64,000 bases of DNA from Chordicoccus furentiruminis. Its GTDB lineage: Bacteria; Bacillota; Clostridia; Lachnospirales; Lachnospiraceae. The stretch spans positions 2,459,001-2,523,000 of the forward strand of contig NZ_CP048829.1 of NCBI RefSeq assembly GCF_019355395.1, written 5' to 3'. Both the position numbers and the translations under genes were made by a program. The notes under the pieces are model-generated. The model was not told where the DNA came from, did no database searches, and saw only the letters and a program-made list of their open reading frames with translations. Below, piece by piece: positions 13,468 through 62,475 of the stretch; position 1 is the first letter of the stretch, and each line of letters starts with the position of its first letter.

Positions 13468-13485
13468 ATAATGGAGAATTGCGAG

Positions 13486-14088
13486 ATGAACAGAAAAGAA
13501 TACAGCGCCGGTGCTGTAAAACATTCTTTCTGGTTTATGGAATTCCGCAAGGTCGTATCTCTCCGCCTGGAGGGAAAGACGTGGGAAGAAATAAAGCGTC
13601 TGAATGAGGAAGAGAATATCTTCGGAGCGCCGACGACGCTGCGGGCAACGCAGATTTTCAATACGGTTTCGGCCCGTGTAAAAAGCATGGACGATAGCTT
13701 CTATCCTGTCTTTGAGGCTTGTGATCTGGCCTCTCAGAAGCTCTTTGCGCTTGTGGCTGCCATGACTTATGACGTGCTCTTTGGTGAACTGGTCTATGAG
13801 CTTATCCGGGAGAAAATGATCATCGGCAGCAATGAACTGGCAGACAGTGATCTGAGGATTTTCTTTAAGGATAAACAGCAGCAAAGCGATAAGGCCGCCA
13901 AGTGGACGGAGGCCACAATCAAGAAGCTGATGGTTTCCTACAAATCCATGCTGTATGAGGCGGGCGTGACCAATAAGGCAAAGAATGTCCGTGAGATTTA
14001 CAAGCCTTTACCCGATCCGGCAATGGAACGCTGGATGAAGGATCAGGGAATGAATTATCAGCTGAAAGCAATTACGGGGGTGAGATGA
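13486..14088 (+). CDS. brxA: BREX system protein BrxA (DUF1819)
   Basis: About 200 residues from the ATG at 13486, which is preceded by GGAG at 9 bases; an ATG at 13471 would add five residues. The sequence matches DUF1819/BrxA: Tyr-Ser-Ala-Gly near the start, the Phe-Trp-Phe-Met-Glu-Phe-Arg-Lys-Val helix and the C-terminal Arg-Trp-Met-Lys-Asp. BrxA is a small DNA-binding protein of type 1 BREX phage defence. The first of the core genes in conserved order, it overlaps brxB by 4 bp (ATGA). Confidence 0.93.
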   Translation: MNRKEYSAGAVKHSFWFMEFRKVVSLRLEGKTWEEIKRLNEEENIFGAPTTLRATQIFNTVSARVKSMDDSFYPVFEACDLASQKLFALVAAMTYDVLFGELVYELIREKMIIGSNELADSDLRIFFKDKQQQSDKAAKWTEATIKKLMVSYKSMLYEAGVTNKAKNVREIYKPLPDPAMERWMKDQGMNYQLKAITGVR

Positions 14089-14666
14089 TGGCAGGATTAC
14101 AGGAACGATTAGATCAGATGGAAGCTGCCATCCATAAACCGTCATTCCGGGAAAGCAGCGGAAGGGCAAACGAGGTCAACTATTGGGTGTTTGACTACGA
14201 TCCGGCAAAGGAACTGGAAGTCCGGGAGCGTGTCGAATACATGAGGAAAAAGAATGCGAAAGGCACTGACGGCTTTGAGCTGGTGGTCTTTGATCTGTAT
14301 GACATGATCATGGACTATCTGGAGGAAAAGGACTTCGTGAATTCCTATGTCCGCTATGAACAGCGCCGCGGCTTCGACTATATTATCCGGGCAGCATCCA
14401 CGTCAATGAAGATGAACGAGGACGATAGCATCCTGATCAAGAAGATTGTGGAGCAGACCCCGGAAAACGCGATTGTGTTTTTAATCGGCGTGGGCAAATG
14501 CTACCCACTCCTTCGGTCACATAAGATACTGAACAACCTGCATCAATCTGTGCTGAAAGCACCGGTGGTATTGTTCTTCCCCGGAACATATACCGAGCAG
14601 GAGCTGATTCTTTTCAACGAAATTAAAGACGATAATTACTATCGCGCATTCAAACTTGTGAAGTGA
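14085..14666 (+). CDS. brxB: BREX system protein BrxB (DUF1788)
   Basis: 193 residues, full length for DUF1788. Recognisable features are the Asn-Tyr-Trp-Val-Phe-Asp-Tyr-Asp-Pro segment (about residues 29-37) and Pro-Val-Val-Leu-Phe-Phe-Pro-Gly-Thr-Tyr (about 165-174). BrxB is a core BREX component of uncertain biochemical role, thought to join the BrxC/PglX/PglZ assembly. Two adjacent ATG codons could start it. It sits between brxA and brxC as in type 1 systems. Confidence 0.93.
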   Translation: MMAGLQERLDQMEAAIHKPSFRESSGRANEVNYWVFDYDPAKELEVRERVEYMRKKNAKGTDGFELVVFDLYDMIMDYLEEKDFVNSYVRYEQRRGFDYIIRAASTSMKMNEDDSILIKKIVEQTPENAIVFLIGVGKCYPLLRSHKILNNLHQSVLKAPVVLFFPGTYTEQELILFNEIKDDNYYRAFKLVK

Positions 14667-18348: not shown

Positions 18349-19395
18349 ATGAATAAGACTGCCATTAAAAACTTTGCCATCTGGGCAAGAAATAAACTGA
18401 TCGCGGATATCAGCTACCGTGCTGGCCTGATGGGGATTACTGCGGACGGTATTCAGAAAGCATTGCCGCAGTCTACCGGAACGACTGAGTTCTACGACAT
18501 CGGCACGGCGGAGCCTTATTCCATCAGCGGAGACGCCGTAAAACAGAGGAAGCATCTAGTAGAGCTGATCCAGCGGAAAGAGAAGGAAACAAACTATAAG
18601 ACTGCCTATAAATATGTTCTGGAGGAGGTTGCCTATACTTGGTTCAACCGCCTGATCGCCGTGCGCTTTATGGAAGTTAATGATTACCTTCCTTCTCATA
18701 TCAGGGTGCTTTCTTCTGACTCCGGAAAGATGGAACCGGATTTGGTGACGAATCCGTTCAGCGCAGGCTTGTCCTTCACTTCGGAGGAAGAACAAGCTAT
18801 CTATCAGCTGAAGCAGGAAAACAAACTGGATGAGGTTTTCCGTATCCTCTTTATCAAGCAGTGCAATGCATTGAATGAAAATCTGCCGGCACTGTTTGAA
18901 AAAACCAGCGATTATACGGAGCTGCTGCTAAATCTGTCAGTCATTGACCAGGACGGCGTAGTCTATCATCTGGTACACGATATTCCGGAAGAAGATTTCG
19001 ATGTGGAACGCGGCGGCCAGGTAGAGATCATCGGCTGGCTGTATCAGTATTACAACACCGAGCCGAAGAATGAAGCCTTTGCAAAGAAAGGCAAGATTAC
19101 CAAAGAAGAAGTGCCTGCGGTCACGCAGCTATTCACACCAGACTGGATTGTACGTTACATGGTGGAGAACAGTCTTGGCCGCCTGTGGGTTGAGGGGCAT
19201 CCGAATGATGACCTGAAAGCAGGCTGGAAATACTATCTGGAAGAAACTGAGCAGGAACCGGGAGTGCAGACAAAGCTGGCTGAAATCCGTGCTGAATATT
19301 CGAAGCTGAATCCGGAAGATATTAAGGTGATCGATGCTAATTGCTCGGTTTTGATACAAGAATACGAAAGCGAAACAAGGCTGAATGTGGCTTAA
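18349..19395 (+). pseudogene. pglX: BREX adenine methyltransferase PglX, N-terminal fragment
   Basis: The frame starts exactly like PglX (Met-Asn-Lys-Thr-Ala-Ile-Lys-Asn-Phe-Ala-Ile-Trp-Ala-Arg) and follows the family for about 329 residues through Gln-Leu-Phe-Thr-Pro-Asp-Trp-Ile-Val-Arg-Tyr-Met. It breaks right after Ile-Lys-Val-Ile-Asp, where motif I (Asp-Pro-x-x-Gly-Ser-Gly-His) should follow. The last 18 or so codons are unrelated. Intact PglX is about 1,200 residues, so the catalytic part is missing. pglZ and brxL do not follow. The system is therefore inactive unless the missing part can be rejoined. Confidence 0.93.
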
Positions 19396-19736
19396 TTAAA
19401 GGGCTTTCCGAGCGGAGGGTTCTTTTTTTATGCTCAGAATTCGGAGCAGATGATGAGTTTTGGTACAGCAGTGCGAAGGCGCTGCCAGAGGGGTGTTCAT
19501 ACTCACACACGATAAAAAATGTGTCAGTATCAATCGTTAAAATGTAAGGCATAGAAAATTCAGAAAATCTTCCCTTGCCCTTCATCTAAAATGAGCATAT
19601 ACTCATAGCTAATCCTCTCCGAGTTTTCGGAGGGGTGTCTTTATCTTATTTCGACCGGAGAGAGTTCCGGCGTCCCGTGCCGTCCGGCACAACCTTTACC
19701 ACATAACTTTTAAATCTATGAAGCGGAGGACAATGA
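19396..19736. other. junction region between broken pglX and the SymE-like gene
   Basis: No convincing gene. It contains a T-run after a weak hairpin near 19402-19430 and a better hairpin at 19613-19633 (CTCTCCGA/TCGGAGGGG) followed by TGTCTTTA. Small inverted repeats (CCGGAGAGAGTTCCGG, GTGCCGTCCGGCAC) lie at 19660-19695 in front of the next gene. Open frames on either strand are short and lack family features. This is the likely edge of whatever interrupted pglX. Confidence 0.5.
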
Positions 19737-20009
19737 ATGGCAAAACTGGTATCCAAGAGAACAACGACAACTGTAACTGAAGAGGTGGAGTTAATTCCGG
19801 CAGTACCCGGGGAGATGAAAGGTCATCGTTTCATGAAAGTAGGTGGTTATGGCACCTACCGCGGGGCTGATGGAAAGGACGTAGGCAAACCGCAGATAAA
19901 CCTGAATGCCAAGTGGCTGGCAGAAGCCGGGTTTGATGTAGGTGAGCAGATAGACGTGGAAGTTCATGAGAATGAACTGGTAATCAGAAAACTGTGTGTG
20001 CAGGCATAA
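19737..20009 (+). CDS. SymE-like protein
   Basis: 90 residues. The C-terminal 45 residues (Pro-Gln-Ile-Asn-Leu-Asn-Ala-Lys-Trp-Leu-Ala-Glu-Ala-Gly-Phe, ending Glu-Leu-Val-Ile-Arg) match the SymE toxin/AbrB-like fold. SymE of Escherichia coli is an SOS-induced type I toxin that lies beside a restriction locus; the present copy also neighbours a restriction island. A GCGGAGGA ribosome site is well placed. Toxicity is not established for Clostridial relatives, and no antisense antitoxin was identified. Confidence 0.75.
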   Translation: MAKLVSKRTTTTVTEEVELIPAVPGEMKGHRFMKVGGYGTYRGADGKDVGKPQINLNAKWLAEAGFDVGEQIDVEVHENELVIRKLCVQA

Positions 20010-22671: not shown

Positions 22672-23934
22672 TTATGGTTCAAATGGACGCTCAATTTCCC
22701 GAATCAGTTCCTCCTTGTCGGAATCATGATTCCCGTCATAGTTCTTAAGCAAATAACGGGTATCAAACACTATGCCCTGAACCCGTTCGTAGATTTCGGG
22801 ACTATCCGGATGGTCCACCCAGTCCCCGACAGCTTCAGCGACATTCCCAAAGAGGCTGTTGATGCCGAAGTCATTGTTCGTGCGGTTATATGGCATGATA
22901 AATGCATTGAACACCTGAGTGCCGGCGGGGGTCTTCTGATTTTTTACAAACTGGCCATACGTGATCTGCTTGTTTATATCAGAGGACTGTGGCAGAAGCC
23001 CAGGACCGTATTTCGGGAGTATTCCGTAACGATAGTATTTTGCATCAAGTACATAGAACTTCCCACCGTAAATCATTATGGTGTCGGGTTCGAGAGCACT
23101 TGCCTGTTTACCCTTATTCTTACCAAACCTTTCGGTCCATAATCCATGAGGGAAGTAGGCATCCTTGTTTGGTACACCGAAGACTTTATCAATCAGTCTT
23201 TCCCAGACTGTCTCAAATCTGTCCGTTCCGAAATAGAACTGTTTGTCGATGGTCTGATTATCCCGGAATTCGATCATTGCGATCATGGAGCGGAAGAGCA
23301 TCTTATCGTCTACATTATTCGTGCTGCCAAGTTTTGCGTTGAGAGTAGCAAGAAACATATTCTTGTCGAACGTGATGTCTGGCTGCTCGGGAGTATTTGT
23401 GGTATAAATCCAGCCGATTCGTTCGAAACTTTCATACACACAGTACTTGTGAATGCGCGTGATTAAGCGGTTCAAGTCGGGGGTGGAAACACGGACAACC
23501 TGGTTCAGATAGAGAAGAGACTTCCCCTGAACCATTGGAGTTTGCGTTTTTATGGTTCTGCCCCAGTCTGTTTTGCCACGTTTGTCAACCTTATATGTTG
23601 TTTCGGTTTCGGTATAGTAGCTGCCATTGTGATCCAGGTAATAATTAATGACATTCAGGTATGCCTGGATGGGAAAATCCACGGACTGAGGAGCCGTGAA
23701 TTTGTCCATCTCAAGGACTCGGTCTGTTTTCTCAGTGAACGTTGCGAGAACCTGGAACAGGTTCTTTATGTCTCTGCGGAGCTCATCATCCTGTGCAGGC
23801 AATTCATAACCCATAGGGAAATAGATCATCGCATTATTGCTGTCAGCTTTTACGCCGACAAAACGGTCACCATCTCCATTCTGGTTGATATGGCAGTGTT
23901 CTCTAATAACAAAATGCTCACGGTCTATGGCCAT
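22672..23934 (-). CDS. LlaJI-family restriction endonuclease subunit
   Basis: 420 residues matching the RE_LlaJI family, whose members act with a McrB-like GTPase to cut DNA at asymmetric sites. A PD-(D/E)XK-like core is visible near residues 282-298: Leu-Glu-Pro-Asp-Thr-Ile-Met-Ile-Tyr-Gly-Gly-Lys-Phe-Tyr-Val-Leu-Asp-Ala-Lys. It is the last gene of a three-gene minus-strand operon, 18 bp after the AAA+ gene. The recognition sequence cannot be deduced. The frame is intact, and GGTGGTGAG precedes the ATG. Confidence 0.88.
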   Translation of the reverse strand: MAIDREHFVIREHCHINQNGDGDRFVGVKADSNNAMIYFPMGYELPAQDDELRRDIKNLFQVLATFTEKTDRVLEMDKFTAPQSVDFPIQAYLNVINYYLDHNGSYYTETETTYKVDKRGKTDWGRTIKTQTPMVQGKSLLYLNQVVRVSTPDLNRLITRIHKYCVYESFERIGWIYTTNTPEQPDITFDKNMFLATLNAKLGSTNNVDDKMLFRSMIAMIEFRDNQTIDKQFYFGTDRFETVWERLIDKVFGVPNKDAYFPHGLWTERFGKNKGKQASALEPDTIMIYGGKFYVLDAKYYRYGILPKYGPGLLPQSSDINKQITYGQFVKNQKTPAGTQVFNAFIMPYNRTNNDFGINSLFGNVAEAVGDWVDHPDSPEIYERVQGIVFDTRYLLKNYDGNHDSDKEELIREIERPFEP

Positions 23935-23952
23935 GGACTCACCACCAATCTG

Positions 23953-25551
23953 TTATGAATTACTCTTCGGTACGAGCGAATTGTAAATATTTTCCTTAAA
24001 CACGAGAAAACGGCTGTTTCCCTGTGATGTGACGAAAAGGTCAATAACATCTTCCAGACTTTTTACTTTTTCCAGATCAAATACATCCTCCTTGGTAAAT
24101 TTGAAGGCGTCATCCCACAGGTACTTCAGCACCTTTTCGGGAAAACGGCTGATTTGCCGTTCGCTGCCATCGCCGACAGCAAGATCCTCCTCTGAAACGA
24201 AATGGGTGCCAAGACGCTTATCTTCGGAGGACGTCATCCTTATGTTTTTGCCGAGGATGAAATTGTTAATCTCGGTAAAGAAATGCTCCCATGTTACATC
24301 GGTATCAAGGATCTTTGTCCCGGCAAATCGTCTCTCATCCTCTTCATCGTGGAATCTGTTCCTGATCAGTCGCATACTCCATCTGCGCTGAAAAGCCGTG
24401 TCCAAAGTGAAAACATTCTGGTCACTTGTATTCATGGTGCAGAGAATGCACATGTTCGACGGAATTGATACCTTGTGGCTGTCATCCAAATATACGATTT
24501 TTGCTATGTCAGCATTGGTGATTTCATATTCGCTGTTACCGTCCTTGTCGCGGTCAAGCAGTTGAAATACATCTCCGAAAATGGCCGGAGCGTTGCCGCG
24601 GTTCACTTCCTCGATAACCAGGTAATACATCTTTTCGGGGTTGATATAAGCTTTACGAACCAGCTTTGTAAAGGGGCCTGCTGAGAATTCATAGCTTACG
24701 CTACCATCATCAGAAACCTTGGGAAGAATCTGGCCGACGAAATCAGAATATGTGTAATCAGGATGAAAGACCAGACGCTCCATGCGATCTTCATTATCGC
24801 AGTATTCATGTTTGATAGTCCAAGATTTGCCTGCGCCGGGGACACCATATAGAATAATATTAGTTCCACCTTTGATTCTTCGTTCGTCGTAGTGTGCGGC
24901 ATTCGCTGTTACGGAATCTGCTTCATTTCCGGCCTTACTTTGATATTCCTTCATGAAGGCTAATAGCTCAGTCTCAAGGTCATCATACACATCACCATAT
25001 TCGGCGAGATAGTAAATGACGTTTCCAAGGTAGCCGGAAGAGGCATCAGGGACTGCTATTTTTTTAAGTACACAGGAACCAAAAATATCCTTGCAGGAAC
25101 GAGTTGTCACTTTGTTCCCGTCTCTGATGTTAAGAAGTGCTTTGCCGGGCCTGAAATCAGGATCAGCCTGGATGAACTTCAGCATACGATCTTTGTCTTC
25201 ATCGTTATCAAATAATGCAGAAAACTGGTCGTTGTCAGTTCTTCCAGAAGCCAGATCTTTTATGATGTCCTGATTATTTCGAATTCTCAAGTCAAAGAAT
25301 TTACAATATGGATATAAAGCCTGTGCATATTTCTTACACACGACAGCAAGATAGAACCACTGGTTAGAGAAAAATACATTGTTGCTATCAGGCTTTACAA
25401 CAGAGGTGGCTCCGTATACTCTTGCATAGCTTTCTTCTTTTTCAAATATTGCCTGAAGGCGGCTTTGCATTGTTTCGGATAAAACTATTTCAGGTATATC
25501 ACTATCCAAAGCAGGGGGCTGAATATCAGCAGCTGTTAAATCTGAAAACAT
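23953..25551 (-). CDS. McrB-like AAA+ restriction protein
   Basis: 532 residues. The C-terminal half is a McrB-type AAA domain: Walker A Gly-Val-Pro-Gly-Ala-Gly-Lys-Ser (about 235-242), Val-Ile-Glu-Glu-Val-Asn-Arg-Gly (Walker B, about 313) and Thr-Met-Asn-Thr-Ser-Asp-Gln (about 376). The N-terminal half is probably the DNA-recognition part. In McrBC and LlaJI systems this subunit hydrolyses nucleotide and translocates on DNA to activate the nuclease encoded next to it. It lies 24 bp after the methyltransferase gene in one operon. Confidence 0.9.
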   Translation of the reverse strand: MFSDLTAADIQPPALDSDIPEIVLSETMQSRLQAIFEKEESYARVYGATSVVKPDSNNVFFSNQWFYLAVVCKKYAQALYPYCKFFDLRIRNNQDIIKDLASGRTDNDQFSALFDNDEDKDRMLKFIQADPDFRPGKALLNIRDGNKVTTRSCKDIFGSCVLKKIAVPDASSGYLGNVIYYLAEYGDVYDDLETELLAFMKEYQSKAGNEADSVTANAAHYDERRIKGGTNIILYGVPGAGKSWTIKHEYCDNEDRMERLVFHPDYTYSDFVGQILPKVSDDGSVSYEFSAGPFTKLVRKAYINPEKMYYLVIEEVNRGNAPAIFGDVFQLLDRDKDGNSEYEITNADIAKIVYLDDSHKVSIPSNMCILCTMNTSDQNVFTLDTAFQRRWSMRLIRNRFHDEEDERRFAGTKILDTDVTWEHFFTEINNFILGKNIRMTSSEDKRLGTHFVSEEDLAVGDGSERQISRFPEKVLKYLWDDAFKFTKEDVFDLEKVKSLEDVIDLFVTSQGNSRFLVFKENIYNSLVPKSNS

Positions 25552-25575: not shown

Positions 25576-26727
25576 TTACCTGACCGGCAGTTCTTCAATA
25601 ACATTGATTAATCTTCTTGCAACAGCCCGTACGACTGGGACGGCCACAGAATTGCCAAACTGTTTATAGGCCTGCGTGTCAGAGACGGGAATTATAAATT
25701 GTTCTGGGAAGCCCTGTAATCTGGCACATTCTCTTGGAGTGAGTTTACGTGGGTTTTTCCCATCCTGTTCTATAAGAATTTCACTTCCATCTTTATAGTA
25801 TCTTGCACTGATAGTATTTGTATATGGAGAATCATCGTTGAAAAGAGAGTAGCCGAAGCCATTTCCCTTTTCTTGGTGTTCCTTCTTACGACGCTGATGT
25901 CCCTCCCAAAGAGAGTCGCTTATTGTATATTTTTCATCAACATTATGCTCGAGTATATCGCCAAGACGGGTGGGCTCATAGGTTGGTTCCGGAAACTCAA
26001 AATCATAATCTTCGGGCAGATCGAAGTATTCCCGATCTAAACCAATAATATAAATGCGCTCTCTATTTTGAGGTACGCCAAAATCCCCGGCCCTAAGTAT
26101 TGCATATTTATGATAGTAATTTAGGTTATCGAGGTGCTCTAAAATCACACGAAGAGTCCGACCTTTATCATGGCCTTTTAACTGCTTGACATTTTCTAAT
26201 AAAAAAGCCTTGGGTCGTTTTTCTTTAAGAATCCGTTCAATCTCAAAGAAGAGTGTTCCGCGTGTATCTGAGAAACCTTTCTTTAGACCTGCCTGTGAAA
26301 AAGGCTGGCAAGGAAAGCCACCGAGGAGGATATCAAAATCAGGAATATCTGATGCTTCTATCTTGGTGATATCACCCTGGGGTTCTTCGCCGAAGTTGAC
26401 GCGATATGTTTTTTGGGCGAATTTATCCCACTCAGATGTAAACACACATTTGCCTCCCAGTTCCTGGAAAGGTATACGTATCCCACCGATTCCCGCGAAC
26501 AAATCTATAAAGCGGAACTCACCATCTCCTTGAGCTGGCCTGAAAGGAATCGCTTCGGCAAATCTCATTATGCTGTTATATTCCAACGTGGATGGGGTTG
26601 ATTCGCCGTTTTCCCATCGCCTTAAAGTGCGATCGCCATTTCGCCCCATTCCGAGTGCATCTGCAAAATCTTTTTGAGTAAGGCCAAGCTGCTTACGCTT
26701 TTCCTTGATCTCCTCACTAATGCTCAT
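25576..26727 (-). CDS. DNA cytosine-5 methyltransferase with N-terminal HTH
   Basis: 383 residues. Residues 5-45 form an XRE helix-turn-helix. The remainder carries C5-methylase motifs in order: Asp-Leu-Phe-Ala-Gly-Ile-Gly-Gly (I), Gly-Gly-Phe-Pro-Cys-Gln-Pro-Phe-Ser (IV, catalytic Cys), Glu-Asn-Val (VI), Gln-Asn-Arg-Glu-Arg-Ile-Tyr (VIII) and Gln-Phe-Gly-Asn-Ser-Val (X). It protects host DNA from the restriction genes. The fused HTH suggests autorepression at the divergent promoter region, as known for other HTH-bearing C5 methylases. AGGAGGT precedes the ATG. Confidence 0.95.
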   Translation of the reverse strand: MSISEEIKEKRKQLGLTQKDFADALGMGRNGDRTLRRWENGESTPSTLEYNSIMRFAEAIPFRPAQGDGEFRFIDLFAGIGGIRIPFQELGGKCVFTSEWDKFAQKTYRVNFGEEPQGDITKIEASDIPDFDILLGGFPCQPFSQAGLKKGFSDTRGTLFFEIERILKEKRPKAFLLENVKQLKGHDKGRTLRVILEHLDNLNYYHKYAILRAGDFGVPQNRERIYIIGLDREYFDLPEDYDFEFPEPTYEPTRLGDILEHNVDEKYTISDSLWEGHQRRKKEHQEKGNGFGYSLFNDDSPYTNTISARYYKDGSEILIEQDGKNPRKLTPRECARLQGFPEQFIIPVSDTQAYKQFGNSVAVPVVRAVARRLINVIEELPVR

Positions 26728-34005: not shown

Positions 34006-36489
34006 ATGCGTGAATTCAAAATAGCCTGCGCCGGCAGCCGGAAGGCTGCCCGTTGGGCAAACCAGAAGGTAACCTGGCCGGATCTCTGCGGCAGGCTGAA
34101 AAACACATCTTACACGTCTGAAACTTCGGAAGAATACTGGGCCATGAGCAAGGATGACCGTGATGCCGCCAAGGACAAAGGCGGATTCGTGGGAGGATAT
34201 CTCAGGAACGGCAGACGCAGAATCGCTGACGTGGAATGCCGGTCCCTTATTACGCATGACGTGGATACTCCGGAGATGGATTTCTATGAGCGGTTTATGA
34301 GGGAGTTCCCGTATGCCGCCATCATTTATACCACGCACAGCCATATGCCGGACAGGCCCAGGTTTCGTGTCGTTATCGCGCTCGAGGAAGACATCGCTCC
34401 CGATCACTATGAAGCAGTGTCCCGTTATCTTGCCGCGGAGTTCGGCATTGAACAGTATGACCCGGTATCGTTTGTGACCAATCAGCTGATGCACTGGCCT
34501 TCGACCTCGAAGGACGCGGAATACATCTGTGAGGTGAAAGAGGGACCGTTCCTGAACGCGGATGTGTACCTGGCAGAGCATCCCGGCTGGGAGGATTATT
34601 CCAACCTGCCTGTTTCCAGCCGGGAGAAGAACCGGAGGGAACGGGACGGAAAAATGCAGGAAGACCCGCTCTCCAAGGAAGGTATTGTGGGAACCTTCTG
34701 CCGGGTGTACGGCATCCAGGATGCCATCAGCAAGTTCCTGTCAGACATATATGCTCCGTCCGCCGTGGACGGCCGGTACGACTATATTCCCGGCGAGGGT
34801 TCCTGCGGTGTCGTAGTCTACGATGACAGGTTTTCCTACAGCCACCACGCCACCGACCCCGCCGGGGGAAAGCTGCTGAACGCCTTTGACCTTGTCCGGG
34901 TGCACCGTTTCGGGGATGAAGATGGAAAAGAATCGTTCCTTAAGATGTGCGCCTTTGCCGAGAGCGATCCCCTGGTGAAGGAGGAACTGGAGAAAGAGAA
35001 GGTGGAGCAGGCGAAGAAGGACTTTGAAGAGATCAGTTCCAAATGGGAAGATCCGATCCCGTTCGGGAAGTATGAACTGGAGGCATTCCCGATTGACGCT
35101 CTGCCTGCTGATATCAGTGCATATGTCCAGGCGGTAGCGGAAAGCACACAGACGCCTGTTGATATGGCCGGGACAGCTGCGCTTGCCGTCGCAGCCATGT
35201 GCTGCCAGGGCAAATATGTGATACAGGGAAAGGCTGACTGGATCGAACCGCTGAACCTTTATACCAATGTCATCGCGCAGCCGTCCGAACGTAAATCCGC
35301 GGTTGAACATCATATCGTCCGCCCCGCGGACAATTTTGAGGTCCAGTATAACCTGCGGAACGCCGCCCGGGTGGAAGGCTCCAAGATGCGGAAACGTATC
35401 CTGGAACGCAGGCAGAAAGCCATCGAGGACAAGGTGGCAAAAGGCCAGGCGGAGCCGGGAGACCTGGAGCAGATCGCGCAGGAGATCGCCGACTTCGAGG
35501 AAGAAAAGCCGCTCCATCTGTATGTGGACGATATCACGACTGAAAAGCTGGTATCCGTTATGGCAGGCAATCATGGCCGTGCGGCGCTGATCTCCAGTGA
35601 GGGCGGCATCTTCGATACCCTGGCAGGCATTTACACCAAGAACGTCAATATCGATGTCATGCTGAAAGCCTACTCCGGGGACACCATCCGGGTTGACCGC
35701 ATCGGGCGGGAAAGCGAGAGCATTATGAACCCCACCCTGACCATCCTGCTGATGACGCAGCCAAAGGTCGTATCCGATGTGCTTGGGAACCCCACGTTCC
35801 GCGGACGGGGACTGACCGCTAGGTTCCTGTACTGCCTGCCGGACTCCTCTGTCGGCGAACGCCGGTTCCAGAGCAGGCCGATCCCGGAAAAGGCGTACCA
35901 GAGATATGAGCAGCGGATCATCAACATGCTGGAGGACGAGTACCCGCAAAGGCCGGAGATTATCACGCTTTCCCCGGATGCTTCAAAGCTGCTGACGGAT
36001 TTCGCGGAGGAGATCGAACCAAAGCTGAAGACCGACTATGCCGAGATTTCTGACTGGGCGGGAAAGCTGGTAGGCAATACGCTTCGTATCGCCGGACTCC
36101 TGTGCAGGGCGGGTGTGTGCCGTGCGCCGGAATTCCTGAATGAGAACGAACACCTGGAGGTCAGCGGCGGGACGATGGCGGATGCCATACGGCTTGGACG
36201 CTACTATCTGAGTCATTCGATGGCGGTGCATGACGCGATTCCCCAGTCATCCATGTACAGGCAGGCGGAAAAGATTCTTCAGATGATACGGGAACGGCGG
36301 CTGGAGGAGTTCACGCGCAGGGACGCCATGCGTTTCTGCCAGACCTTCAAACGGGTTGATGAGATACAGCCCGTACTGGATTTCCTTGAGGATATGGGAT
36401 ATATCGCGTCTGTGGATACCAAACCGAACTACGGCAAGGGAAGGCCGTCATTGCCGAAGTATGTGGTCAATCCATCTGTTTTGTCATAA
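34006..36489 (+). CDS. DUF3987-type phage primase/helicase-like protein
   Basis: 827 residues. The N-terminal 190 residues resemble a primase-polymerase fold (Arg-Ser-Leu-Ile-Thr-His-Asp-Val-Asp near 80, Ile-Ile-Tyr-Thr-Thr-His-Ser-His near 104). The middle is a DUF3987 ATPase with the P-loop-like Gln-Pro-Ser-Glu-Arg-Lys-Ser (about 425) and Leu-Thr-Ile-Leu-Leu-Met-Thr-Gln-Pro (about 577). The C-terminus looks like a winged helix. Such proteins initiate phage replication. The stop lies inside the first repeat of an iteron-like cluster. Confidence 0.85.
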   Translation: MREFKIACAGSRKAARWANQKVTWPDLCGRLKNTSYTSETSEEYWAMSKDDRDAAKDKGGFVGGYLRNGRRRIADVECRSLITHDVDTPEMDFYERFMREFPYAAIIYTTHSHMPDRPRFRVVIALEEDIAPDHYEAVSRYLAAEFGIEQYDPVSFVTNQLMHWPSTSKDAEYICEVKEGPFLNADVYLAEHPGWEDYSNLPVSSREKNRRERDGKMQEDPLSKEGIVGTFCRVYGIQDAISKFLSDIYAPSAVDGRYDYIPGEGSCGVVVYDDRFSYSHHATDPAGGKLLNAFDLVRVHRFGDEDGKESFLKMCAFAESDPLVKEELEKEKVEQAKKDFEEISSKWEDPIPFGKYELEAFPIDALPADISAYVQAVAESTQTPVDMAGTAALAVAAMCCQGKYVIQGKADWIEPLNLYTNVIAQPSERKSAVEHHIVRPADNFEVQYNLRNAARVEGSKMRKRILERRQKAIEDKVAKGQAEPGDLEQIAQEIADFEEEKPLHLYVDDITTEKLVSVMAGNHGRAALISSEGGIFDTLAGIYTKNVNIDVMLKAYSGDTIRVDRIGRESESIMNPTLTILLMTQPKVVSDVLGNPTFRGRGLTARFLYCLPDSSVGERRFQSRPIPEKAYQRYEQRIINMLEDEYPQRPEIITLSPDASKLLTDFAEEIEPKLKTDYAEISDWAGKLVGNTLRIAGLLCRAGVCRAPEFLNENEHLEVSGGTMADAIRLGRYYLSHSMAVHDAIPQSSMYRQAEKILQMIRERRLEEFTRRDAMRFCQTFKRVDEIQPVLDFLEDMGYIASVDTKPNYGKGRPSLPKYVVNPSVLS

Positions 36490-41048: not shown

Positions 41049-42107
41049 ATGAGAATTCTTACATGCGAACAGGTGTCGGACGGTCACCCTGATAAAATCT
41101 GCGACCAGATCGCGGATGCCGTTGTCACCGACTGCCTGCGGCACGACCCCGAATCCCGTGTCGCCATTGAGTGCCTTCTGAAGAACGACCAGCTGATCAT
41201 CGCGGGGGAACTGACCAGCACCCATGAGCCGGACTACCGGAAACTGGTGTATGAGGTCTTTGAGCGCATTGGACGTGGGCGCCTGGGCTATCCCGCCGAC
41301 CTTGATATCGGAATCCTGGTGAAAAAGCAGTCCCCCGACATCGCGCTTGGCGTGGATAAGGGAGGAGCCGGCGACCAGGGCATCATGTACGGCTATGCCA
41401 CCAATGAAACCCCGGAACTGCTGCCGATCCCCTTTGTGGTGGCGACAAAGTTCCTGCAAATACTTAAAAACCATCCGAGCCGGATGTTCCGTGCTGATGC
41501 CAAGGCACAGGTCTCCTATGATTACGATACGGGCCGGATCACGGTATTCCTCTGCAGCGTACAGCACAGCCCGGATGTTGAGGTATCGGATTTCCGCCAT
41601 ATCGTGGAAAGCGCGATGGTACTGGCGGCTTCCGAGTACGCACTGAATACGGATTTTGAAAAGCTGATCAATCCGACCGGCAGGTTTGTCATAGGCGGCA
41701 GTTTTGCCGACTGCGGTGTGACGGGCAGGAAGCTGGCGTGCGATACCTACGGCGGCATCGGCAGGATCGGCGGAGGCGCCCTTTCCGGGAAGGACCCCAC
41801 CAAGGTCGACCGCTCCGGCGCATATATGGCAAGGAAGATCGCAAGGGACATCGTACTTTCCGGGTATGCCGATAAATGCGAGATACAGATCGCCTATGCC
41901 ATAGGAATGACAGACCCCGTATCCGTGAACATCGACTGCTTTGGTACGGAGAGCCAGAATCCCCGCATGATTGAGCAGTTCGTAAAGGACAGCTACGACC
42001 TGACCCCGAGGGCGATGTGTGAGAGCCTTTCCCTGCGGGCGGTGGATTACAACCAGGTCAGCAGCTACGGACACTTCGGGAGGCCGGGCCTTCCCTGGGA
42101 GCGGTAA
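41049..42107 (+). CDS. metK: phage-encoded S-adenosylmethionine synthetase
   Basis: 352 residues, shorter than the 380-400 of cellular MetK. Key motifs are present: Ser-Asp-Gly-His-Pro-Asp-Lys (10-16), Gly-Ala-Gly-Asp-Gln-Gly (about 110-115) and Gly-Gly-Gly-Ala-Leu-Ser-Gly-Lys-Asp-Pro-Thr-Lys-Val-Asp-Arg-Ser (about 241-256). It makes SAM from methionine and ATP, the methyl donor for the two DNA methyltransferases encoded 0.8 kb downstream. The missing length seems to come from shortened loops, so activity is likely. It overlaps the HNH gene by one base. Confidence 0.95.
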   Translation: MRILTCEQVSDGHPDKICDQIADAVVTDCLRHDPESRVAIECLLKNDQLIIAGELTSTHEPDYRKLVYEVFERIGRGRLGYPADLDIGILVKKQSPDIALGVDKGGAGDQGIMYGYATNETPELLPIPFVVATKFLQILKNHPSRMFRADAKAQVSYDYDTGRITVFLCSVQHSPDVEVSDFRHIVESAMVLAASEYALNTDFEKLINPTGRFVIGGSFADCGVTGRKLACDTYGGIGRIGGGALSGKDPTKVDRSGAYMARKIARDIVLSGYADKCEIQIAYAIGMTDPVSVNIDCFGTESQNPRMIEQFVKDSYDLTPRAMCESLSLRAVDYNQVSSYGHFGRPGLPWER

Positions 42108-50521: not shown

Positions 50522-50897
50522 GAAGAAGGCGCCTTCCTGCCCGAAATGGCTGGAGCCGGAGGCGAAGAAGGAATGGCGCAGGCTTGCGAAAAAGATGGAA
50601 CTGATGGGGGTGCTGACGGAAGTTGACATGGCGGCTTTCGCGGGATACTGCCAGGCATATGCCAGGTGGAAGGAAGCCGAGGAATTCATCACGCAGCACG
50701 GCACCATCGTGAAGACGCCGAGCGGATACTGGCAGCAGGTGCCGCAGGTGTCCATCGCGCAGACCTATCTGAAAGTCATGAACCGTTTTGCGGAGCAGTT
50801 CGGCCTGACCCCGGCATCCCGCTCCCGCATCATTGCCGATATCTCCGGCGCGGACAGCGGCGATGAACTGGAGGCGCTTCTGGGAGGTGACAGCTGA
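50424..50897 (+). CDS. terS: P27-family terminase small subunit
   Basis: 157 residues from the ATG at 50424 behind AAGGAGGTGAGCC. The N-terminus Arg-Gly-Arg-Lys-Pro-Thr-Pro-Thr-Ala with Leu-Glu-Gly-Asn-Pro-Gly-Lys-Arg is the P27 terminase small-subunit signature. It binds phage DNA at the packaging start and delivers it to the large subunit, whose gene overlaps by one base. Confidence 0.95.
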   Translation: MATRGRKPTPTAIKELEGNPGKRKLNDREPKPEKKAPSCPKWLEPEAKKEWRRLAKKMELMGVLTEVDMAAFAGYCQAYARWKEAEEFITQHGTIVKTPSGYWQQVPQVSIAQTYLKVMNRFAEQFGLTPASRSRIIADISGADSGDELEALLGGDS

Positions 50898-52519
50898 TGG
50901 CAAGGGAACCAAGGCCGGCAGGCTACCCGAAACTGAAGGACTACAAGCCTACTCCCTTCATGCTGCCCACATCCCGGTATGATAAGAAAAAGGCCGACCG
51001 GGCTGTAAAGTTCATTGAAAACCTGTCCCACACCAAAGGCAAGTGGGACGGCAAGCCGTTCTGGCTGCTCCCCTGGCAGGAACAGATCATCCGGGATATC
51101 TTCGGCATCGTGGACGCAAGCGGTCACAGGCAGTTCCGCACAGCCTATATCGAAATCGGAAAAAAGAACGGTAAGTCCGAGCTTGCGGCGGCAGTGGCGC
51201 TGTATCTTCTCTATGCTGACAACGAGCCGTCCGCGGAAGTGTACGGCGCAGCGGCAGACCGGCAGCAGGCGTCCATTGTTTTCGATGTGGCCAGGCGCAT
51301 GGTGGAAAAGGCACCGGCGCTGTATAAGCGCTCCAAGGTTGCTGCCGCCACCAAGCGGATCGTGAACTATTCCAATGCCGGTTTCTACCAGGTCCTCTCT
51401 GCTGAGGTCGGGACCAAGCATGGCCTGAACGTTTCCGGGCTTGTCCTGGACGAAGTTCATGCCCAGCCGAACCGGAAGCTGTATGACGTGCTTACAAAAG
51501 GCAGCGGCGACGCCCGGGAGCAGCCGCTGTATTTCCTGATCACGACCGCAGGGACGGATAAGGAAAGCATCTGCTATGAACTGCACACGAAGGCCCTGGA
51601 CATCATGGCGGGAAGGAAGGTCGACCATACCTTCTACCCCGTGGTCTACGGGCTGACGGATGACGATGACTGGACGGACGAGACAAACTGGTATAAGGCG
51701 AACCCCTCCCTGGGGCAGACCATACAGATCGACCGTGTGCGTGATGCCTTCCGGGAAGCGCAGGAAAACCCCGCCGAGGAGAATGTGTTCAAGCAGCTCC
51801 GTCTAAACATGTGGGTGTCCTCCCTGACCCGGTTCATTCCGGAGCAGATATATGATCTCGGGAACATACCCATCGACATGGAATCCTTAAAGGGCCGTGA
51901 CTGTTACGGAGGACTGGATCTTTCCAGCACCGGGGACATCACGGCTTTTGTGCTGATGTTCCCGCCAAGGAACGAGACAGAGAAATATATCATGCTGCCG
52001 TTTTTCTGGATACCGGAGGATACGATACCCCTCCGTGTCCGCAGGGCATCGGTGCCGTATGACGTATGGCATCAGCAGGGCTACATCAACGCGACTGAGG
52101 GGAACGTGATCCACTATGATTTCATTGAGAAGTTCATCGAAAAACTCGGTGAGCAGTATCACATCCTGGAAATTGCCTTTGACCGATGGGGAGCCGTGCA
52201 GATGGTGCAGAACCTTGAGGGCATGGGCTTTACGGTCGTTCCGTTCGGCCAGGGCTTCAAGGACATGAGCCCGCCCACGAAGGAGTTCTACAAACTTCTG
52301 ATGGAGGGAAAGATCATCCACGGCGGCAATCCGGTCATGCGGTGGATGAGCGGCAACGTGGTGGTCGACAGGGATGCCGCGGAGAACATCAAGCCGACCA
52401 AGGCGAAATCCCCGGAAAAGATAGACGGCATTGTGGCGGCGATCATGGCGCTTGACCGCTGCATCCGGCATGAGGAGCACGGCAGCGTCTATGATGAGCG
52501 CGGCCTGATGGTGTTCTGA
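50897..52519 (+). CDS. terL: terminase large subunit
   Basis: 540 residues. The ATPase domain has Lys-Trp-Asp-Gly-Lys-Pro-Phe, a P-loop-like Ile-Gly-Lys-Lys-Asn-Gly-Lys-Ser (about 88-95) and Leu-Val-Leu-Asp-Glu-Val-His (about 180-186). The nuclease domain starts with Gly-Gly-Leu-Asp-Leu-Ser-Ser-Thr-Gly-Asp (about 337-346) and ends with Lys-Ile-Asp-Gly-Ile-Val-Ala-Ala (about 510). It powers DNA packaging and cuts the concatemer. Full length, and one-base overlap with terS. Confidence 0.97.
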   Translation: MAREPRPAGYPKLKDYKPTPFMLPTSRYDKKKADRAVKFIENLSHTKGKWDGKPFWLLPWQEQIIRDIFGIVDASGHRQFRTAYIEIGKKNGKSELAAAVALYLLYADNEPSAEVYGAAADRQQASIVFDVARRMVEKAPALYKRSKVAAATKRIVNYSNAGFYQVLSAEVGTKHGLNVSGLVLDEVHAQPNRKLYDVLTKGSGDAREQPLYFLITTAGTDKESICYELHTKALDIMAGRKVDHTFYPVVYGLTDDDDWTDETNWYKANPSLGQTIQIDRVRDAFREAQENPAEENVFKQLRLNMWVSSLTRFIPEQIYDLGNIPIDMESLKGRDCYGGLDLSSTGDITAFVLMFPPRNETEKYIMLPFFWIPEDTIPLRVRRASVPYDVWHQQGYINATEGNVIHYDFIEKFIEKLGEQYHILEIAFDRWGAVQMVQNLEGMGFTVVPFGQGFKDMSPPTKEFYKLLMEGKIIHGGNPVMRWMSGNVVVDRDAAENIKPTKAKSPEKIDGIVAAIMALDRCIRHEEHGSVYDERGLMVF

Positions 52520-52644: not shown

Positions 52645-53982
52645 ATGGGATTTTTTGAATGGCTGGGCATCAGCCCGAGGGATGCCCCTGATCTGCCGCG
52701 GGTGGAGGACAGCGTCCGGGACTCCGGGCAGACGTTCGTCTTCGGACGGGCGGACTCCGGCGAGCGTGTGGATGAAAAGAGCGCGATGCAGATTGCTACG
52801 GTCTATGCCTGCGTGAGGCTCCTGGCGGAAACGGTGGCGGGGCTTCCCCTCCATCTGTACCGCTTCACGGATGACTCGGAGAAGGGCAAGGAACGCGCGA
52901 AGGACCATCCGCTGTACAAGCTGCTTTACCGGCAGCCAAACCCGGAGATGACATCGTTCTCCTTCCGAGAAGTGATGATGACGCATCTTCTGCTGTGGGG
53001 CAACTGCTACGCGCAGATCGTCCGGGATGGCAAGAACGGCATCCTGGGGCTGTACCCGCTACTCCCGGAGAACGTTGAAGTCGACCGTGATGAGAAGGGA
53101 CAGATCTATTACATCTACCACGCCTATACGGATGAAAAACCGGGCGAGACAAATAAGGATATTTTCTTCCGGAGGGATGAGATATTTCACGTTCCGGGAC
53201 TTGGATTCAACGGGCTTGTGGGTTTTTCCCCCATCGCCATGATGAAAAATGCCCTCGGCACAACGCTTGCCGTGGAGAAATACGGCAGCAGCTTCTTCCG
53301 GAACGGCGCACAGCCGTCAGGCGTCCTGGAACATCCGGGGGTGCTGAAGAATCCGGAGAAGATCCGGGAGAACTGGTCGGATGTGTATGGCGGGGCCAAC
53401 AACGCCCACAAGGTGGCTGTCCTGGAGGAAGGGATGCAGTACAAAGCCATCTCCCTGCCTCCGGAGGACTCACAGTTCCTGTCAACCAGACAGTTCGGAG
53501 TGAACGAGATATGCCGGATCTTCCGTGTTCCCCCGCACATGGTGCAGGACCTTGAGCATGCCACGTTCAGCAACATCGAGCACCAGAGCATCGACTTCGT
53601 GGTACATACACTGACGCCCTGGCTTGTGCGGTTCGAGCAGGCAATCGTTAAGGACCTGCTGATGGAGGAAGAACAGGATACTTATTTTCCGAAGTTCAAC
53701 GTGGACGGGCTGCTCCGCGGCGACTACCAGTCCCGCATGCAGGGGTACGCCACGGGAATCAGCAATGGATTCCTGTCCCCCAATGATATACACCGTCTGG
53801 AAAATATGGACCTGATCCCTGCGGAAAAAGGCGGCGATGACTACTACCTGAACGGGGGCTACGTGAAACTGGCCGATGCCGGGAAGCAGCAGGCCGCCGC
53901 GGCAAAACCAGAGCCGGAACCGGACACACAGGAGAACCCGGAGGAAAAGCCGGAGAACAGAAAGAGAGGTAAACGACAGTGA
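52645..53982 (+). CDS. HK97-type portal protein
   Basis: 445 residues with family landmarks: Thr-Val-Tyr-Ala-Cys-Val-Arg-Leu-Leu-Ala-Glu-Thr (about 52-63), Pro-Leu-Tyr-Lys-Leu-Leu (about 90), Trp-Gly-Asn-Cys-Tyr-Ala-Gln-Ile (about 117-124) and Phe-Arg-Val-Pro-Pro-His-Met-Val (about 292-299). Twelve copies form the DNA entry ring of the head. An AGGGAGG-like site precedes the ATG. It overlaps the protease gene by 4 bp. Confidence 0.97.
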   Translation: MGFFEWLGISPRDAPDLPRVEDSVRDSGQTFVFGRADSGERVDEKSAMQIATVYACVRLLAETVAGLPLHLYRFTDDSEKGKERAKDHPLYKLLYRQPNPEMTSFSFREVMMTHLLLWGNCYAQIVRDGKNGILGLYPLLPENVEVDRDEKGQIYYIYHAYTDEKPGETNKDIFFRRDEIFHVPGLGFNGLVGFSPIAMMKNALGTTLAVEKYGSSFFRNGAQPSGVLEHPGVLKNPEKIRENWSDVYGGANNAHKVAVLEEGMQYKAISLPPEDSQFLSTRQFGVNEICRIFRVPPHMVQDLEHATFSNIEHQSIDFVVHTLTPWLVRFEQAIVKDLLMEEEQDTYFPKFNVDGLLRGDYQSRMQGYATGISNGFLSPNDIHRLENMDLIPAEKGGDDYYLNGGYVKLADAGKQQAAAAKPEPEPDTQENPEEKPENRKRGKRQ

Positions 53983-54764: not shown

Positions 54765-54810
54765 GGGTCCGGCTTTTTCTATGTTCAATTATGAAAGGAT
54801 GGTAAATACC

Positions 54811-56034
54811 ATGAGCAAGATTATCGAACTGAGGAATAAGAGAAACACCCTGTGGGAGCAGACGAAGGCATTCCTTGAGCAGCACAGGGACGAGAACGGC
54901 CTCGTGAAGGCGGAGGCTGTCGAGCAGTACAACAAGATGGCGGCCGACGTGAAAGCCCTGGGTGATGAGATCACCCGCCTGGAGGAACAGGCCGAGATGG
55001 ATGCAAAGCTGTCCCAGCCGACCTCCACCCCGGTACATTCCGACCCGAAGGACGGCAAGAAGAAAAACGTCCGCGCGACTGCGACCGCTGAGTATTCCGA
55101 GGCATTCTGGAACATGCTACGCGGCCGCATTTCCAATGAGGCACTGGAGGGCCTTTCCATCGGCGAGGATGAGAAGGGCGGCTATACCGTGCCGGATGAA
55201 TTTGAGCGCAAGCTGGTCGAAGCCCTGGAGGAGAACAACATTTTCCGTGGCCTTGCCACTGTGATCCGTACTTCTTCCGGTACCCGCAAGATCCCGATCG
55301 CCGAGGACTCCGGTGAGGCGTCCTGGATCGATGAGGGCGAGGAGATCCCGGAAGCTGACGCGACCTTCGGCCAGACCACGCTTGCAGCCTACAAGATGGG
55401 AACCATGATCAAGATCAGCAACGAGTTGCTCCATGATTCCGCTTTCGACCTGGCATCCTATATCGCGCGCCGTTTTGGCGTCCGCATGGGCAATGCCGAG
55501 GAGAAGGCGTTCATCCAGGGTGACGGGCAGGGCAAGCCCCTCGGCCTCCTGGCTGAAACCGGCGGCGTTCCGGTCGGCGTGACTGCCGCATCTGAAACCG
55601 CTGTGAAGTTTGACGAGATCTTTGACCTCTACTACTCGCTGAAGTCCCCGTACCGCAAGAAGGCGAAGTTCCTCTGCAACGAGGCGCTTCTGCTTCAGCT
55701 GATGAAGATCAAGGACAAGAACGACAACTATATCTGGAAGCCCTCCCTTGAGGTCGGCAAGCCGGATACCGTGCTGTCCCGTCCGATCATTACCAGTTCT
55801 TATATGCCCTCCATCACGGCGGGACAGAAGGCCCTGCTGTTCGGCGATTTCTCTTACTACTGGATCGCTGACCGCCAGAACCGCACCTTTAAGCGTCTGA
55901 ATGAACTGTACGCCCGCACTGACCAGGTTGGCTTCATCAGCACACAGCGTGTTGACGGCAAGCTGATCCTGCCGGAGGCTATCCAGGCGCTGAAGATGAA
56001 GGGAACCGCTCCGGCGGCAAATGCGGAAGGCTGA
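54811..56034 (+). CDS. HK97-type major capsid protein
   Basis: 407 residues from the ATG at 54811 (GAAAGGATGG). Residues 1-85 are a charged coiled-coil delta/scaffold region probably removed by the protease. The HK97 core follows (Gly-Gly-Tyr-Thr-Val-Pro-Asp-Glu-Phe near 122, Glu-Glu-Lys-Ala-Phe-Ile-Gln-Gly-Asp-Gly near 230, Tyr-Met-Pro-Ser near 330). It is the main shell protein. Its codon use (strong preference for C/G-ending codons) suggests high expression. Confidence 0.97.
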   Translation: MSKIIELRNKRNTLWEQTKAFLEQHRDENGLVKAEAVEQYNKMAADVKALGDEITRLEEQAEMDAKLSQPTSTPVHSDPKDGKKKNVRATATAEYSEAFWNMLRGRISNEALEGLSIGEDEKGGYTVPDEFERKLVEALEENNIFRGLATVIRTSSGTRKIPIAEDSGEASWIDEGEEIPEADATFGQTTLAAYKMGTMIKISNELLHDSAFDLASYIARRFGVRMGNAEEKAFIQGDGQGKPLGLLAETGGVPVGVTAASETAVKFDEIFDLYYSLKSPYRKKAKFLCNEALLLQLMKIKDKNDNYIWKPSLEVGKPDTVLSRPIITSSYMPSITAGQKALLFGDFSYYWIADRQNRTFKRLNELYARTDQVGFISTQRVDGKLILPEAIQALKMKGTAPAANAEG

Positions 56035-61900: not shown

Positions 61901-62475
61901 AGACCAGCATCGGTACGATCGTTGATGGAATCAAGACGAAGGTCTCTGGTGTGTTCGACGGTATTAAAACTGCTGCTTCTACTACCTGGAATAATATTAA
62001 GTCGGCCATGACCAGCCCGATTGAAACAGCAAAGACCACGATCAGTAATGCGATAGAACGGATTAAGGGGCTCTTCAATTTCACGTGGAGCTTCCCGAAA
62101 CCGAAGATGCCGCATTTCTCTTGGTACTGGCAGGATGTCGGTGGCATTCTTTCTATTCCGATGATTTCAGTGGACTGGTATAAGAAGGCCATGGATGCTG
62201 GTATGATCCTGAATTCCCCGACGATCTTTGGCATGATGAACGGACAGCTCCTCGGGGCTGGAGAAGCAGGATCGGAGACGGTGGTCGGTACACACAGCCT
62301 GATGGACATGATCCGGCAGGCCGTTGGCAGCGTTGAGCGTGCCATGAATATATACTACGGTGGCGTGACGGTGAATGTTTACAGCCAGCCGGGACAGGAT
62401 ATTTCAGAGCTTGCTGATGAGATTGAGGAACGTATCAACATGAACGTCGCAAGAAGAGCGGCGGCATTTAGCTAA
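58933..62475 (+). CDS. phage tail tape measure protein
   Basis: 1,180 residues. Residues 10-120 are coiled coil. A TP901-type tape-measure core follows (Gly-Ile-Gly-Ala-Ala-Ala-Val-Lys-Thr-Thr-Ala near 158, Ala-Met-Ala-Gly-Trp-Lys-Thr-Gly-Asp near 218), then hydrophobic segments near 495-530 and 545-570. From about residue 660 to 1050 an 11-residue unit of the form Thr-x-x-Trp-Asn-x-Ile-Lys-Thr is repeated about 30 to 35 times. It sets tail length and passes into the host membrane. No peptidase or lysozyme motif was recognised. Confidence 0.97.
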   Translation: MANRIKGLTVEIDGSTTGLDKALKNVNSTIKNTQTQLKDVQRLLKLDPSNTELLSQKQRLLKEAIGATKDKLESLKTAQEQAKQQLENGTLGQDKYDALQREIEETEQALKNLESQVSTTYSALEKIDETGKKLQQAGDKIAGVGKTLTTHVTAPIVGIGAAAVKTTADFDAQMSKVQAISGATGKDFDDLRAKAREMGAKTKFSASEAGEAFEYMAMAGWKTGDMLDGVEGIMNLAAASGEDLGTTSDIVTDALTAFGLSAKDSGHFADILAAASTNANTNVSMLGESFKYAAPVAGSLGISAEDTSVALGLMANAGIKASQAGTSLRTGLTNLAKPTKQMQTYMDKYNIALVENDDGSINLRETMISLREKMGNLSESEQAAAVSAIFGKNSMAGWLSIINASDDDFNKLTGAIDNCDGSAESMAEIMQDNLSGQLTILKSQLEELAISFGDLLMPIIRKVVAAVQAFVDKLNGMSDAQRETIIKVLALVAAIGPLLLILGKVISIVGSAMSGFASLGKGIISLGTKMQSLGGISGVLGKAIGFLTSPIGLVIAAVAVLVAAFVHLWQTNEEFREKVTAIWEKIKSIFSEFVEGIKERLANLGISFEDITATIGKIWDGFCNLLAPVFIAVFEIIENVLETVLGVLTGLFDVFAGIFTGDWDMVWTGVKEIFTSIWNGIKGIFEAVLNAIKGIADTILGWFGTDWETFWTGIKTFFVNLWNGIKTFFTNTWNAIKTFVTTVLTGIRDFFVNIWNGIKTTVSTVVTGIQTTVTTVWNAIKTFFTTILTGIKTTFETVWNAIKTTVSTVVNAIKTTVTTVWTAIKTTAESIWNAIKTFFTTTLNAIKTTFSTVWNAVKTAVTTVWNGIKTTASTVWNAIKTFFTTTLNAIKTTFTTIWNSVKTTVTTVWNGIKTTATTVWNGIKTFFSTTLNSIKTTFSNIWNGIKSTVTTIGSSIKTSVTTAWNNIKSSLSTTMTNIKTAASNAWTGMKTSIGTIVDGIKTKVSGVFDGIKTAASTTWNNIKSAMTSPIETAKTTISNAIERIKGLFNFTWSFPKPKMPHFSWYWQDVGGILSIPMISVDWYKKAMDAGMILNSPTIFGMMNGQLLGAGEAGSETVVGTHSLMDMIRQAVGSVERAMNIYYGGVTVNVYSQPGQDISELADEIEERINMNVARRAAAFS
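60915..62080 (+). repeat. 33-bp coding repeats in the tape measure gene
   Basis: Roughly 30 to 35 imperfect 33-bp units encoding the 11-residue Trp-Asn-x-Ile-Lys-Thr repeat. They stay strictly in frame. The same sequence opens long false frames on the other strand. Confidence 0.85.

Follow-up and report, generated by a model that had tools for sequence, protein, structure and literature searches.

It is known that serine recombinases leave a two-base core and a symmetric attP, and that the pglX gene of BREX systems can be altered by DNA recombination (phase variation). The A118 prophage in the comK gene of Listeria reportedly works as a phage regulatory switch, in what is called active lysogeny. 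Insertions of serine-integrase elements into methylase genes were already described in streptococci: ICEs with three serine integrases insert in hsdM, snf2 and other methylase genes, and the targets of mobilizable elements with serine integrases are snf2, traG and maff2 (available parts of PMC4701971, PMC12942858, PMC7563491 and PMC5357655). Excision of such ICEs when the target gene is needed is discussed as a possibility by the authors in the accessible text of PMC4701971. In E. coli BREX, according to the accessible text of PMC6326788, loss of brxB, brxC, pglX or pglZ ends both methylation and defence, removal of brxL ends defence and removal of brxA is without effect.

The locus described here lies in the single-contig genome (3,267,205 bp) of Chordicoccus furentiruminis. 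The window, i.e. the whole stretch of 64 kb that was analysed, comprises bases 2459001-2523000 of this genome, and its numbering is extended to the right beyond position 64000 (Table 1). A complete BREX type 1 set (brxA, brxB, brxC, pglX, pglZ and brxL, identified with PADLOC) is split across both sides of a large element. The preliminary description of the window had claimed that pglX is normal for about 329 residues and then turns foreign, and that pglZ and brxL are missing from the window, and both statements hold: residues 1-332 of the 5' half fit the PglX model (PADLOC PDLC02521, E 5.4e-128), foreign sequence starts after residue 329 and continues for 19 residues to a stop ending at 19395, and pglZ and brxL lie beyond the window. 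The frame with the 3' half begins with foreign residues and is PglX from Val-Gly-Asp-Pro-Cys-Met-Gly-Ser-Gly onward. It is followed directly by a second, intact copy (pglX2), the 5' part of which is 87% identical to that of the interrupted copy (pglX1) over query bases 1-987 of 1,388, about 64 kb to the right; this match stops at 19335, one base past the GA at the break. Both 5' parts are on the same strand, and not in the inverse orientation of pglX phase variation by inversion. Over 574 aligned positions the right half of PglX1 has 50% identity to PglX2, which is shorter by about the last 320 residues of PglX1. Gaps between the pglX1 right half, pglX2, pglZ and brxL are 3, 14 and 22 bp, the last three genes being consecutive open frames. 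A QatA-like gene (90087-91976, PADLOC E 6e-133) is situated directly 3' of brxL and, judged from its sequence, the locus may be a larger defence island.

Table 1. Features of the interrupted BREX locus and of the integrated element (window coordinates; positions above 64000 are in the numbering extended to the right).
Feature	Position	Strand	Remarks
brxA	13471-14088	+	PADLOC BrxA, E 9.2e-71
brxB	14085-14666	+	PADLOC BrxB, E 1.3e-66
brxC, 1,214 aa	14676-18320	+	PADLOC BrxC, E 0, residues 1-1212
pglX first copy (pglX1), 5' half	18349-19395	+	328 codons and split Asp codon, 19 foreign residues, stop
Integrated element, 60,829 bp	19333-80161	+	left 44.7 kb inside the window (19333-64000)
attL GA core	19333-19334	+	first two bases of the Asp codon before Pro-Cys-Met-Gly
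attP half-arm in attL	19335-19359	+	25 nt, last bases TTTGATACAA
LlaJI-like restriction endonuclease	22672-23934	-	cargo, Pfam
AAA_5 ATPase	23953-25551	-	cargo, Pfam
C5 cytosine methylase with HTH	25576-26727	-	cargo, Pfam
Phage helicase/primase	34006-36489	+	PHROGs
S-adenosylmethionine synthetase	41049-42107		cargo, Pfam
Terminase large subunit	50897-52519	+	PHROGs
Portal	52645-53982	+	PHROGs
Major head protein	54781-56034	+	PHROGs
Tail tape measure protein	58933-62475	+	PHROGs
Serine recombinase R1, 604 aa	75209-77023		element right end
Serine recombinase R2, 524 aa	77008-78582		element right end; stops 1.6 kb before attR
pglX1 3' half frame, 936 aa	80015-82825		PADLOC PglX, E 0, profile positions 306-1165
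attR GA core	80162-80163		partner of the attL GA
pglX2, intact, shorter, 874 aa	82829-85453		directly 3' of the pglX1 right half
pglZ	85468-87990		outside the window, PADLOC
brxL	88013-90073		outside the window, PADLOC

The two GA dinucleotides are 60,829 bp apart. When the flanks are rejoined at this core they form one frame of 1,215 codons, with the join Val-Ile-Asp / Pro-Cys-Met-Gly, and the rejoined pglX1 aligns to the intact pglX2 with 0 gaps over 1,404 nt across the join (identity per 60-nt bin is 50-58 for the five bins to the left of the join and 53-60 for the seven to its right). As the pglX remainder starts at the homologous base with no gap in these 1,404 aligned nt, chance is not a reasonable account. 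In attR, TTGTATCAAA starts 25 nt before the right GA and is followed by 15 nt up to the core, and in attL the left GA is followed by 15 nt and then by TTTGATACAA, the mirror of TTGTATCAAA about the core; all ten outer arm bases are mirrored (10/10), with their outer end at the same distance of 25 nt from the core on the left and on the right. No target sequence was lost, the core is short and the rejoined gene is whole, as characterizes a serine-integrase insertion. A tRNA attachment site was rejected, no tRNA genes being present in the 64-kb window. The preliminary description proposed that an element had integrated into pglX, with the rest of the gene, pglZ and brxL past its right end, and suggested looking there for an in-frame 3' part after Val-Ile-Asp and for an integrase gene. 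All of these were located: the 3' part lies 60,829 bp to the right and gives the open 1,215-codon join, and two large serine recombinases, R1 and R2, are found at the right end of the element. It had named a missing pglX remainder or a simple deletion as grounds for abandoning the proposal; the remainder is present and nothing is lost at the join.

The R1 and R2 genes overlap by 16 bp, and both proteins possess Resolvase, Recombinase and Zn-ribbon domains (Pfam), i.e. each is a full-domain recombinase near an end of the element, as expected of serine integrases. A search of the same genome with R2 found six places, R1, R2 and four more at 404-408 kb and 505-506 kb; at the element R1 and R2 are the only two, and not the triplet of serine integrases of Tn1806-like elements. 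We scanned 10 element proteins against PHROGs and 10 more against Pfam, plus five others (R1, R2 and three small ones). Terminase, portal, head, tail and lysis (endolysin) genes, the set of a tailed temperate phage, were all matched in PHROGs, which gave further ParB-like and methylase matches, and DNA polymerase A is also among the cargo (Pfam). The earlier claim that mobile-element and prophage DNA follows the break is thus borne out by the tailed-prophage genes and other cargo among the 20 proteins scanned in the two databases. At the left end of the element the first + strand ORF of the list (19737-20009) encodes a SymE-like protein (Pfam SymE_toxin, E 5.2e-13). A LlaJI-like restriction set and an S-adenosylmethionine synthetase are carried by the prophage that splits the host BREX methylase, and from gene content it looks as if the element interrupts one defence system and carries part of another.

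Of 299 genomes sampled from the family, 34 contain a match (E <= 1e-20) to a query of 490 aa that spans the break site and was taken from the intact pglX2. Two of the matches listed are interrupted at this position, that of our genome and that of G151, where residues 328-482 only are matched, preceded by an arm of the same kind, then GA and then Asp-Pro-Cys-Met-Gly-Ser-Gly-His. The left pglX half of G151 is absent among the matches listed, and there was no match to an R1/R2-type recombinase within the 19 kb examined. In two other genomes (G219 and G210) brxA-B-C-pglX-pglZ-brxL are in order on one strand with uncut pglX (1,219 and 1,237 aa). A long and a short pglX in tandem, as in our genome, are present in G332 (L233; open frames of 1,224 and 872 aa). 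Such a tandem in one BREX operon is thus seen in two genera of the family, and the short pglX2 may be a kept form and not a broken one. The same junction in pglX was found elsewhere, in L117/L230 (one contig), L196, L228, L234 and L073, and a further pglX match backs our own case, L117, L196, L228, L073 and L234, plus the decayed L043, whose pglX half has stops after such an insertion. In L073, a MAG contig, a pglX 5' half with the arm adjoins brxC. No R1/R2-type match is present in the examined DNA of L228 or L234. Five viral stretches match the pattern: L230, which is the L117 contig, L228, which also has the further pglX match, and L227, L229 and L231, where the motif is the evidence.

To see the junction in a wider set, relatives of R2 were fetched without regard to their target, as the best 80 of 580 genome stretches and the best 80 of 599 viral stretches, together with loci from the genus that have about 1.5 kb of flank only (one of these, L026, is our own locus again). 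The 189 fetched loci and our own give 190 rows; many of the relatives are MAGs, in which chimeric contigs are possible. A regular expression for methyltransferase motif I, run over the 189 loci on both strands and in any frame, had 13 matches, and 13/13 are situated to the right of R2 on the strand of R2 and directly after the arm and GA, with one arm base changed in L196. The arm-GA junctions of the 190 rows were labelled as motif I (30), serine-recombinase catalytic motif (25), other recombinase motifs (5), comF-like (2), amidase-like (1), intact attP (6, our own element not among them), other (5) and none (116). Eleven labels, including motif I for L043, L139 and L073, were assigned by hand on reading the motif, the recombinase, comF and amidase names were read from the motif and not from a model, and the 30 motif-I rows include near-copies (L071/L164 and L150/L153, with identical R2, and L044, which is close to L047). 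Among the 116 loci with no arm junction to the right of R2, many stop a short way past R2, and different sites may be used in others. An exact attP scan of viral contigs, with the very strict pattern of 10-base arms and 15+GA+15, found two contigs.

In a quick tree built from the 74 rows with a label we counted 18 label changes against 36.9 in shuffles (0/200 as low, to which the near-copies contribute), 11 against 23.5 for motif I versus all other labels, and three for motif I versus the recombinase motif alone. By these counts target choice tends to follow recombinase lineage, but the rows at motif I do not form a single clade. In the seven closest recombinases (R2 identity at least 78%, our own included) the junction is at motif I in five and not in L037 and L041; the five targets are pglX (our own and L117), a type I methylase (L038), a type IIG-like methylase (L039) and a small class I methyltransferase, not a DNA methylase (L040). 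Sister lineages (L060, L062, L065, L108, L112 and others) have the arm-GA junction at an apparent Asp-Asp-Gly-x-Ser-Gly-Thr catalytic motif, and we read these as integrases that landed in other serine recombinase genes. In L078, L126 and L088 the junction is at a comF-like Asp-Asp-Ile-x-Thr-Thr-Gly (two loci) or an amidase-like Asp-Pro-Gly-His-Gly-Gly (one locus).

The right halves of 26 of the 30 motif-I rows were cut out and, with L075, L153, L164 and L191 left unscanned, 22 were scanned, all of which (22/22) match methyltransferase models. For L117 and L196 this was PglX in PADLOC, and for the other 20 a Pfam model. In 13 of the 20 rows matched in Pfam, position 52 of the N6_Mtase profile (best match) falls on residue 1 of the half. 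Other target types are MmeI-type, type IIG (PADLOC; L067 and L137) and DUF6094 (L083), and the targets of L071, L113 and L116 are linked to helicases and match methylase models weakly. These targets, which are type I, type IIG, helicase-linked and BREX methyltransferases, do not support an aim at BREX alone. Both ends can be seen in type I genes too. An HsdM_N frame of Clostridium sporosphaeroides DSM 1294 (KB911068.1) ends at GA and a mirrored arm, with an N6_Mtase half 55,644 bp away, and in Veillonella seminalis (NZ_RQUZ01000004.1) the distance from the HsdM_N end at GA and arm to the N6_Mtase half is 52,679 bp; we infer that in each species the two hsdM halves were one gene. These came from a search for the HsdM_N family in 10 genomes, seven of which had a match; six loci were opened and three of them end at GA with a relaxed arm, the third being L092, a MAG with the right half on another contig (in the two named species it is on the same contig). 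A search for the left-arm pattern in 11 genomes had 8 matches, none of which is a methylase half on reading.

From all these results the locus is best explained by a temperate-phage-like element of 60.8 kb which entered the first pglX gene of the tandem pair by site-specific recombination of the serine-recombinase kind, a reading to which we give a probability of about 0.87. Our confidence was slightly lowered by the lack of recombinases in L228 and L234 and by the scattered motif-I rows. R1 and/or R2 would be the recombinases that integrated the element, the putative attP being arm-GA-arm and the putative attB the DNA encoding methyltransferase motif I, Asp-Pro-x-x-Gly-Ser/Thr-Gly. The R1/R2 lineage would use motif I as a general landing site, with BREX pglX as one of several targets. 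In the integrated state PglX1 would be split just before the SAM-binding motif and brxABC would be 61 kb away from pglX2-pglZ-brxL; BREX would then be off or, given a promoter in the right half, would have PglX2 as its only PglX, and excision would restore the operon exactly. Excision of the element is plausible as a prediction. A wider proposal, that paired large serine recombinase lineages adopted motif I DNA as their att site, so that lysogeny reversibly switches an immune or epigenetic system off and excision switches it on, in whichever motif-I methylase is hit (BREX, type I or type IIG), is tentative and in our opinion doubtful.

The break could be attributed instead to a deletion or rearrangement between the two pglX copies, which have 87% identical 5' parts at one locus. 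Both pglX1 halves are present with nothing lost, mirrored arms around a GA core agree with serine integration and the same kind of junction recurs in other genomes; the gap-free join and the mirrored arms rule this origin out for practical purposes. The effect of integration on defence is less certain. With PglX1 split and brxABC separated BREX should suffer, given the effects of deletions in E. coli, and while the element is integrated BREX would most likely be off or reduced. Loss of defence, as proposed in the preliminary description, is uncertain since pglX2 is intact directly downstream with pglZ and brxL. The main rival is therefore a switch of specificity, in which PglX1 is inactivated, pglX2-pglZ-brxL are transcribed from the right end of the element and BREX works with PglX2 recognition. 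These three genes are open and adjoining, PglX2 at 50% identity to the right half of PglX1 may recognise different sites, the tandem of long and short pglX is also found in G332, and the right end of the element has seven promoter-like sites, six on the + strand, against 3.0 expected (sd 1.8). However, consensus promoter matches are weak evidence, PglX2 is without the C-terminal part mentioned above and the upstream brxABC products are also required, and we consider such a switch possible but rather unlikely.

Slightly less probable still is an insertion that can no longer excise, in a BREX operon that is broken and drifting. Excision is a prediction from sequence, and the L043 pglX half did acquire stops after such an insertion, but in our genome both pglX1 halves are open and rejoin without change, the recombinases and scanned structural genes are open with long profile matches, and intact attP-like sites are present in 6 of the 190 rows (our element not among these). 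A split PglX1 that works as two polypeptides, with the catalytic half made from a start inside the element, would be in accordance with a cut just before the catalytic motifs and with an ATG and open frame in the right half; the stretch leading up to the Asp codon belongs to the element, however, and this reading is very improbable.

On this reading the phage enters through that part of an anti-phage gene whose DNA is under the strongest constraint. The host cannot easily mutate motif I DNA without loss of the enzyme, and comparable DNA is found in further methylases with motif I. Immunity would become coupled to prophage induction if excision were under regulation. The sequence of arm, 25 nt, GA and motif I offers a simple means of locating element ends and of predicting attB for many serine recombinases, an enzyme class that is used as genome tools.

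The available parts of PMC12829572 and PMC9009780 mention no such methylase-gene insertion. In the open-access literature searched, a scope mostly without subscription papers, we found no report of a BREX gene as the target of a serine-recombinase element or of a motif-I codon rule. Insertion in methylase genes is already known from streptococcal ICEs, and the BREX case and the motif-I rule appear new within that literature.

As with A118 in comK, the host gene is split by a serine-recombinase prophage and precise excision would make it whole again; here, unlike there, the target is an anti-phage gene, and excision and regulation are predicted only. As in the phase variation of BREX pglX, pglX is changed by DNA recombination and an extra pglX copy lies nearby, whereas here the second copy is direct and intact and the change is the insertion of a mobile element. 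Tn1806-like and other streptococcal ICEs are similar in having tandem serine recombinases and in splitting methyltransferase genes, their targets being hsdM, an snf2-linked methylase and an Eco57I-type methylase, all three of which were used by one element (available parts of PMC12942858, PMC4701971 and PMC7563491). The accounts of these ICEs, in the parts available, give the target genes by name; the motif-I codon is not mentioned, and no BREX gene is among the targets. As described in the same parts, these ICEs are conjugative, have three integrases and use a GG-centred repeat (TGGG-GGGA or -GGGT), in contrast to the two recombinases, the tailed-phage gene set and the GA core of the element in pglX1.
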